Below, piece by piece: positions 18,885-20,204 of a stretch of 64,000 nucleotides of DNA (its first letter is position 1; every line of letters begins with the position of its first letter). The stretch is from Janthinobacterium agaricidamnosum. GTDB lineage: Bacteria > Pseudomonadota > Gammaproteobacteria > Burkholderiales > Burkholderiaceae_D. The position numbers and the translations under genes were made by a program. Location of the stretch: positions 2,976,001-3,040,000 of the forward strand of contig NZ_CP033019.1 in assembly GCF_003667705.1 (NCBI RefSeq), in the 5' to 3' direction. Below the pieces are notes generated by a model that was given only the letters and a program-made list of their open reading frames with translations, was not told where the DNA came from and made no database searches.

Positions 18885-18920
18885 TGTCGGATTACGCGGC
18901 GTGCCGCCGCTAATCCGACC
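18885..18920. repeat. REP, cluster 3 left half (next to the IS)
   Basis: Inverse-orientation REP: TGTCGGATTACG, an inner GGCGTGCCGCC tip and CTAATCCGACC. Its usual last bases (CCTACG in other copies) are replaced by CCTTGT, which is where the IS110 element appears to begin. Confidence 0.85.
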
Positions 18921-18924
18921 TTGT

Positions 18925-19156
18925 ATTATTCCCCTCATGCCGTTCGTGGTATTGCGAACGGTATCGACCGCTGTCAAAATCTTGATAGGCATATCAAGAC
19001 CGGGTAACTGGATGCCGTATCCGCCCTTAGGCCCCGAGCCAGCTCCGTAGATCTCGCACCAGTTACCCATCCTCCATGTCAAGATCGGACAGTATCTTTG
19101 GCACCGGCATGCCGGTTAGCCCGCATTTGCAAGGTAGATCGCAAGAGGACCACAGC
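18925..19156 (+). ncRNA. Candidate bridge RNA region of the IS110 element
   Basis: In IS110 elements the 5' non-coding end encodes a bridge RNA whose loops pair with target and donor DNA. Here the segment holds several perfect hairpins: CCGTTCG/CGAACGG (18940-18946 and 18955-18961), CTTGATA/TATCAAG (18981-18987 and 18992-18998), and a long-range stem GGGTAACTGG/CCAGTTACCC (19002-19011 and 19059-19068) enclosing a 47-base loop. A short ACCGGCATGCCGGT palindrome follows near 19100. The position and the stem with a large internal loop fit a bridge RNA. The ends, and any expression, are inferred. Confidence 0.55.
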
Positions 19157-20116
19157 ATGTTTAATTTAGGAATCGACGTTGCCAAGGCCAAGCTCGACTG
19201 CGCGCTGCGCCTGCCCAACGGCAAGCATCGTAACAAGGTTGTCGAGAACAACCACCAAGGATTCACCGCGCTCCACGCATGGCTGCTGAAGCATGCTGCC
19301 GGCAGCCCCAGGGTGTGCATGGAAGCGACGGGCACGTATTGGGAAGGGGTTGCCGAATATCTCGCTGGACTTGGCATGGTGGTCAGTGTCATCAATCCAG
19401 CCCAGATCAAGGCCTTCAGCGCTTCACGCCTGGTGCGCACCAAGACCGACAAGGTCGACGCACAGCTGATCGCCGACTTCGCCCATGAACGCCAGCCAGA
19501 GCCCTGGCAGGCGCCATCGCCGGCCGAGCAATCGCTGCGCGCGCTGGTGCTGCGCCTCGATGCCTTGCAAGCGATGCGCCAGCAGGAAAGCAACCGGCTT
19601 GAAGTGGCGCGCGCGGCGGTACGCCAGGGTATCGAGGATCATATTGCCTGGCTCGACGCCGAGATCAAGGCGCTGATCCTGGCGATCCGCCGTCATATCG
19701 ATGACGACCCGGATTTACGCGGCAAGCGCGAATTGCTCGATAGCATCCCTGGCCTGGGCGAGCGCACGATTCCCGTGCTGCTGTCCTACTACGCCAATCC
19801 TGAGCGCTTCGACAGCGCCAAGCAGGCGGTGGCGTTTGCGGGCCTCGATCCGCGCCAGCACGAGTCAGGTTCCAGCGTGCGTGGCAAGCCACGCATGTCG
19901 AAGGTCGGCCACAGTTTCCTGCGCAAGGCACTGTACATGCCGGCCATGGTGGCAGTGCATAAGACGCCTTGGGGCAAGCGCTTCGGTCAGCGTCTGCGTG
20001 ACGCCGGCAAAGCGCCCAAGCTGATCATCGGCGCCATGATGCGCAAGCTGGTGCACGTGGCATTCGGCGTGCTCAGGTCGGGAAAAATATTTGATCCGGC
20101 CTTGCACGCCGCTTGA
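19157..20116 (+). CDS. IS110-family transposase/recombinase
   Basis: Intact protein of 319 residues, normal for the family. The N-terminal RuvC-like DEDD domain shows [16 protein letters not shown] (first Asp), [13 protein letters not shown] (Glu) and [16 protein letters not shown] (Asp pair). The C-terminal transposase_20 domain shows [20 protein letters not shown] and [20 protein letters not shown], then [17 protein letters not shown], with the serine of ESGSS in the place of the catalytic serine. A central helical stretch (residues about 130-190) is the expected coiled coil. There is no stop or frameshift, so the element may still be active. The start at 19157 follows AAGAGGACC. Confidence 0.95.
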
Positions 20117-20161
20117 CGGGGATAACAGTATCTACCCGGCTCTTGAGCCCCTTGTCAAACC

Positions 20162-20204
20162 GTAGGTCGGATTAGCGAGGCTTCGCCTCGCGTAATCCGA
20201 CAAT
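20162..20204. repeat. REP, cluster 3 right half (next to the IS)
   Basis: Forward REP: GTAGGTCGGATTAGCG, inner AGGCTTCGCCT tip and CGTAATCCGACAATA. It is complete and lies 6 bp past the right-hand CCTTGT of the IS and 15 bp before the stop of the convergent FadB-like gene. Confidence 0.87.

Follow-up and report, generated by a model that had tools for sequence, protein, structure and literature searches.

A complete insertion sequence of the IS110 family, close to IS621, lies in the 64,000-nucleotide stretch of Janthinobacterium agaricidamnosum DNA analyzed here (the window, whose coordinates are used throughout), which is part of a genome of a 6.36-Mb single contig. To judge from its sequence and that of its relatives, it is very probably an IS621-type element whose own bridge RNA directs insertion to the edge of a single REP of the RAYT type.

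The ends of the element and its empty sites can be read directly in the DNA. The insertion sequence occupies 18922..20131 on the plus strand (1210 bp without the core, 1212 bp with one CT) and has a non-coding stretch of 235 nt upstream and of 15 nt downstream of its gene. It is preceded by the left core dinucleotide CT (18920..18921), which is defined by the five copies in the genome together with two empty sites, and followed by the right core CT and AC (20132..20135), the latter being the rest of the target's CTAC, the complement of the REP head GTAG. A search of the same genome returned five copies that are 99-100% identical. All five share the left end TAATCCGAC/CT-TGTATTATT, abutting a REP, and the right end AACAGTAT-CT/AC. 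These junctions set the limits of the element at 18922-20131, between cores at 18920-18921 and 20132-20133. Its right end is the left donor sequence ACAGTAT (20125..20131), and it does not extend to 20204 as proposed in an earlier sequence-only reading of this DNA. That reading had suggested aligning the flanks of other copies, which gave the same REP junction in five of five, and looking for an empty site in related strains. When the left flank was compared with 40 genomes of the genus, 36 matched, several over a short length, and the best 30 loci were used. The element is absent from this site in all 29 related loci, one of which (L138) has no readable right flank. Two of the 29, L122 and L125, carry the empty site TAATCCGAC-CT-ACCCGGC with a single CT in the same intergenic stretch, which makes the insertion scarless at a short core. 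The motif CCTTGT, taken earlier for a repeat at both edges, does occur at 18919 and 20150, but the right one belongs to the flank, outside the element, and CCCCTTGTC is present at the equivalent place in L123 and L133, two loci without the element; the repeat is a coincidence. No long sub-terminal inverted repeats were detected, the longest exact inverted match between the two 45-nt ends being 5 nt. Membership of the IS1111 group was ruled out, as the element has neither a downstream non-coding region nor sub-terminal inverted repeats of 11-13 bp.

The transposase gene (19157..20116, plus strand) encodes 319 amino acids in a frame that is open from 19076 to 20116; the ATG at 19157 was chosen as the start by alignment with relatives. 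The open frame, the presence of both domains, PF01548 (DEDD) and PF02371 (serine), and a score of 228.9 bits with the NCBIfam model for IS110 RNA-guided transposases (cut-off 140) bear out the earlier description of an intact IS110 transposase. Full-length matches in the PDB are ISCro4 (E 1e-101) and IS621 (E 3e-101). The residues D7, E56, D98, D101 and S237 are what we take to be the catalytic set of IS621, whose serine is S241 (PMC11208158). Whole or partial IS110-type genes of more distant kinship were noted in the same genus at G029:C1:5056430 (46%) and G000:C1:4887214 (34% identical).

The 235-nt leader has a two-loop layout, a target loop followed by a donor loop. Its reading as a bridge RNA, which had been put forward from the family habit of encoding such an RNA in this place, is supported by this architecture and by covariation. 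The predicted RNA comprises, all on the plus strand, a 5' stem-loop at 18937..18964 (arms 18937-18946 and 18955-18964), a small hairpin TCTTGATA/TATCAAGA at 18980..18999 between the 5' stem-loop and the target loop, whose bases pair otherwise in the minimum-energy fold of the isolated leader, a target-binding loop with a 10-bp basal stem at 19002..19068, delineated by hairpin search, alignment and covariation, and a donor-binding loop at 19083..19140, delineated by alignment and covariation. The basal stem is exact (19002-19011 with 19059-19068, enclosing a 47-nt loop), and the region 18933-19150 folds better than shuffled sequences (z -3.6; 1 of 200 shuffles as good), which confirms the strongly structured leader with perfect hairpins described earlier. 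Rfam at gathering scores gave no match in the window, and the argument for the family was therefore made by alignment. Thirty leaders were aligned, the window and 29 relatives (L008 included), and compensatory changes are observed in 17 of the 25 pairs predicted by RNAalifold. A named structure, drawn from the window and from the logic of IS621, is paired in 94.6% of the cells of this alignment, compared to 81.2% when shuffled and no more than 39.2% when slid; its covariation is 0.444 versus 0.166, a value reached by 0 of 500 shuffles. Two kinds of unusual leader were noticed along the way. The copy of Janthinobacterium sp. GW456P (L051:2420-2717) repeats some 78 nt in tandem over the guide region of the target loop, giving a leader of 298 instead of 220 nt; Ns lie nearby in the record and the duplication may be an assembly fault. 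The leaders of L004, L006, L025 and L047 are about 56-59 nt longer than that of the window (e.g. L004:1367-1644) and contain a nested hairpin with an inner GGAGCGCGTAGC(G/A)CGACTGAAG, whose long flanking arms vary in sequence and look complementary.

Transcription of such an RNA may depend on the joining of the ends. A -10-like half, TATTAT, is found at 18924..18929 and a -35-like half, TTGACG, at 20113..20118, overlapping the stop codon; both are on the plus strand, are identified by their match to the consensus, and would form a promoter when the ends are joined, as TTGACG-17-TATTAT with a 17-nt spacer. Joined ends provide a -35 with at least five of six consensus bases in 57 of 64 elements, compared to 0 of 64 as integrated; the 57 include 28 of 35 listed rows, the rest being near-identical Janthinobacterium copies, which make up about half of the 64. 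A promoter rebuilt at the RE-LE junction has been described for IS621 (PMC11208160).

Within the target loop, the left guide ATCCGCCCT (19019..19027, plus strand) matches the REP edge ATCCGAC/CT at eight of nine positions, with the mismatch at position 6. The right guide (19044..19050, plus strand) consists of GTAG (19047-19050), which matches the target's CTAC at four of four positions, and the extension TCC (19044-19046). The expectation that the target loop would hold bases matching the REP edge thus proved correct. The adjoining AT (19051..19052, plus strand) would be the handshake guide of the target loop, able to pair with T and A at donor positions 7 and 6, a placement made by analogy with IS621 (PMC11208158). 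In the donor loop, the left guide ACAGTATCT (19089..19097, plus strand) is identical to the right end and core (20125-20133), and the right guide CAAG, complement of the left end's CTTG, is followed by GT (the two together at 19130..19135, plus strand), which, again by analogy with IS621, would be the handshake guide and could pair with C and A at target positions 7 and 6. Left guides read the bottom strand and right guides the top strand, both including the core.

From these matches we infer transcription, RNA binding and recombination of the element in the following way. Excision would yield a circle in which TTGACG and TATTAT come to lie 17 nt apart, and the bridge RNA would be transcribed from the leader. 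Its donor loop would pair with the element's own ends, the left guide of its target loop with the 3' hairpin arm ATCCGAC/CT of one REP, and its right guide GTAG with CTAC, the complement of the REP's GTAG head. The transposase would then exchange strands at CT, so that insertion would be scarless, would take one orientation relative to the REP and would split the GTAG head from its hairpin.

The REP at the left edge of the element (18886..18919, plus strand) is a hairpin GTCGGATTA ... TAATCCGAC with exact 9-bp arms. The left target is the 3' arm of this hairpin, ATCCGAC (18913-18919). In the window, GTCGGATTA is present 14 times compared to 0.16 expected, and the genome contains 184 ATCCG(A/C)CCTAC sites compared to one for the reversed pattern. 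A pattern for the whole REP in which the loop was set at 13 nt gave no match; the loops vary. In Janthinobacterium, 33 distinct insertions were collected from seven genomes (L184 and L195 are probably one shared site), with the left arms ATCCGAC in 31, ATCCAAC in one and ACCCGAC in one. All 33 sit at a REP-type arm, and no copy flanked by other DNA, the finding named beforehand as one that would speak against REP targeting, came to light among them. CTAC is present at the right end in 30 of the 30 insertions where this end is readable.

The insertion point lies inside the GTAG head of a RAYT-type REP: the target is a repeated, GTAG-headed hairpin, and a RAYT gene is found among such REPs. This gene, at L218 487-1077 on the minus strand, reaches 191.2 bits with model NF047646 (threshold 80) and is flanked on both sides by several copies of REPs of the window's family; its RAYT is probably the maker of the window's REPs. 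The interval L218:392-1244 corresponds to about 5550891-5551743 of the same genome. REPs associated with RAYTs start with GTAG or GTGG in the table rows consulted in PMC2817692.

Outside Janthinobacterium, the right end is available for 33 rows, of which 29 have CTAC and four have other bases. A stem of at least 5 bp ends within 3 nt of the core in 29 of 34 rows, and one of at least 7 bp in 23 of 34. Among control sites from the same loci, which include those of the window and of Janthinobacterium, such stems of at least 5 bp (at least 7 bp) accompany 136 (44) of the 750 further CTAC sites and 244 (23) of 2074 sites chosen at random. A Thioalkalivibrio REP, GTAGGTCGGCCTTCAGGCCGAC (PMC2817692), is the exact complement of the hairpin and CTAC at the L006 target. 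Clear hairpins are missing at the targets of L012, L016 and L026. Such hairpin-edge targets in most relatives would also be expected if the transposase itself recognized the REP hairpin and the leader merely regulated transposase expression, as proposed for ISPpu9, which sits in REPs and is described as having regulatory small RNAs. This explanation is nevertheless improbable: the left guides track their targets letter by letter, the stems at L012 and L016 measure 2 bp and yet the guides match at seven of seven positions (at L012 when read one base earlier), and the leader has the architecture of a bridge RNA.

The bridge-RNA reading concerns the edge of one REP, whereas the sequence-only reading had the element aim at REP pairs. 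Complete REPs do lie on both sides of it in opposite orientation, as had been observed, at 18886-18919 and 20162-20201, the latter (GTAG plus hairpin, plus strand) being the second REP of the resident pair and outside the target. A second REP in opposite orientation on the right is present in the window and at L198, as it would be if pairs (BIMEs) were targeted as a unit. Both empty pairs cited for comparison, at 10.47 and 42.61 kb, exist, but the first REP of the former is a GGGTTA variant. By word search, a REP lies within 100 nt on the right in 13 of 30 Janthinobacterium insertions, or in 15 of 30 when variants of the GTCGGCTTA type (L182 and L197) are counted; L195 and L196, in the same genome as the window, have none within this distance. 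REP pairs are therefore not needed, and insertions at single REPs refute them as a requirement. With a guide that, moreover, spans the edge of one REP only, targeting of BIMEs as units is very improbable.

The guides were surveyed at 110 loci or copies, two of the copies being entered twice (L001/L193 and L002/L194). Guide and target were readable in 69, five of these without a readable right end; the other 41 are at contig ends, are distant, or have a motif that the pattern missed. Two incomplete copies of G033, pieces at contig edges in G014 and G023, and L210 (a 46% relative) were left out. Many REPs share CCGAC/CCGCC-like arms, so that permuted pairs still match at 3.79 of 7 non-core positions. 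That the resemblance of guides to REPs arose by chance or from shared base composition is nevertheless scarcely credible: the 33 distinct left guide/target pairs match at 6.36 of 7 on average, a mean reached by 0 of 20000 permutations, and 17 of the 33 are perfect over the seven positions. The value of 6.36 is the best of two offsets (6.09 versus 3.58 permuted with the offset fixed), and the permutations of targets ignore the relatedness of the elements. The three extra bases of the right guide also follow the target (1.30 of 3 versus 0.87 permuted; 3 of 5000). Poor left matches are found in L005 (4/7) and in L026, L181 and L206 (5/7). L008, outside the 33-pair set, has a readable leader with a 3/7 match by eye and counts against the rule. 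One target in the set scores higher with the guide of the window than the window's own target does. L005 and L007 reside in one genome, with transposase genes 92% identical and different left guides, and in L049, like L008 one of the 41 loci set aside, the left target was located within the leader by eye. On the donor side, the bases beside the core are invariant (ACAGTAT in 33 of 33 rows); the donor loop is therefore matched, and covariation there is uninformative. In two Xenorhabdus elements, L026 and L027, the right guide is altered to ACAG. In L026 the target is CTGT, which matches this guide, with an extended match of 7/7 and no clear hairpin; L027 has CTTG, which does not match the guide, and a 5-bp stem.

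The mismatch at position 6 (window 19024) is a constant feature: guide C faces target A in 32 of the 33 distinct Janthinobacterium insertions from seven genomes, and the guide of L181 has a G that also mismatches the target A. The window's genome holds 183 uninterrupted sites with A at this position and a single uninterrupted site that matches the guide perfectly, ATCCGCCCTAC, one of the 184, at which no copy is found. In IS621, 129 of 173 unique insertion sites match ATCAGGCCTAC and two match the guide's ATCGGGCCTAC (PMC11208160). A mismatch is thus not foreign to this kind of element. We considered that the handshake U of the donor loop could pair with the target A6 after strand exchange and so favor the mismatch. 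As the handshake position is occupied by GT in 66 of 69 elements, a favored mismatch is indistinguishable from a tolerated one. The IS621 mismatch lies elsewhere.

The link to RAYTs is firm in the window's genome. Elsewhere it is hypothetical, because of mixed host-wide counts, targets without a hairpin and right ends other than CTAC. ATCGGA(C/G)CTAC shows no enrichment over the reversed pattern in three Methylomonas genomes (3 versus 20, 5 versus 22 and 10 versus 20), and two degenerate patterns are at least 1.5-fold more frequent than their reversals in 6 of 21 other genomes (5 of 12 and 1 of 9), many genomes falling below the reversed count. Host-wide patterns are blunt, and the claim therefore rests on the hairpin and guide tests. 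The family Y1_Tnp (PF01797) also includes IS200-type transposases. It is represented in 19 of 20 genomes and also matches 5 of 14 controls; given this breadth and the control matches, only the RAYT of the window's own genome was counted. Around the five Y1_Tnp matches in this genome, three of four loci examined are without such a REP.

These findings suggest that the elements end in CTAC because it is the complement of the GTAG of RAYT REPs. Chances seem evenly balanced that this branch of the IS110 family lives on RAYT-made REPs, a nearly constant right guide reading GTAG, a tetranucleotide common to many RAYT REPs across bacteria, and a left guide being retuned to the hairpin arm of each host. 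Insertion replaces the GTAG head beside the hairpin with CAAG and should, on this proposal, immobilize the REP. If so, the recognition signal of one mobile element would serve as the address of another. It becomes testable whether IS110 elements move with RAYT REPs between hosts, chiefly by altering the left guide, and whether a REP is silenced by insertion. The element adds to IS621 another natural example, resolved in good detail, in which a bridge RNA points to REPs and for which numerous copies, empty sites and related guides are available. It also provides naturally occurring guide/target pairs in which one mismatch is constant.

That IS110 elements reside in REPs and that bridge RNAs guide them is already in print. 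IS621 of E. coli was reportedly the subject of a paper by Choi in 2003. In a search that left subscription papers mostly outside, one paper, from 2010, names both IS621 and RAYT, and nine name RAYT and IS110. No statement was found there that GTAG of RAYT REPs is what the near-constant right guide reads, and GTAG, CTAC and RAYT are absent as whole words from the main text of PMC11208160. Among the matches listed, no paper joins bridge RNA with REPIN, and neither bridge RNA nor seekRNA was found together with Janthinobacterium or GTAG. Literature on Janthinobacterium and IS110, judged by title and start of abstract, holds nothing about this element, and that on Janthinobacterium and extragenic palindromes, judged by title, nothing related.

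The closest known system is IS621 of E. coli. Both elements have a DEDD/Ser transposase, a CT core and a junction promoter (PMC11208160, PMC11208158), as well as a leader bridge RNA, predicted in the case of the present element, with the target loop before the donor loop, the layout given by Hiraizumi 2024 (PMC11208158). In both, the target lies at REP edges and ends in CTAC, that of IS621 being ATCAGGCCTAC (Durrant 2024, PMC11208160), and guide and target differ at a single position, the IS621 guide specifying ATCGGGCCTAC (PMC11208160). They differ in the host, in the REP, which is ATCCGACCTAC here, in the position of the mismatch (6 here, 4 in IS621) and in the protein, which is divergent here and matches the PDB entry over its full length. 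ISCro4 (PDB 9t56) is the best-scoring solved transposase (E 1e-101), a likeness by protein alone. The IS1111-type elements with seekRNA are RNA-guided relatives whose non-coding region is described as downstream and accompanied by sub-terminal inverted repeats (PMC11187229), whereas that of the window's element is upstream and no such repeats were detected. ISPpu9, ISPpu10 and ISPa11 share with it the habit of inserting every copy at one position of the host REP (Tobes and Pareja 2006, PMC1525189); REP positions are counted otherwise in that source.
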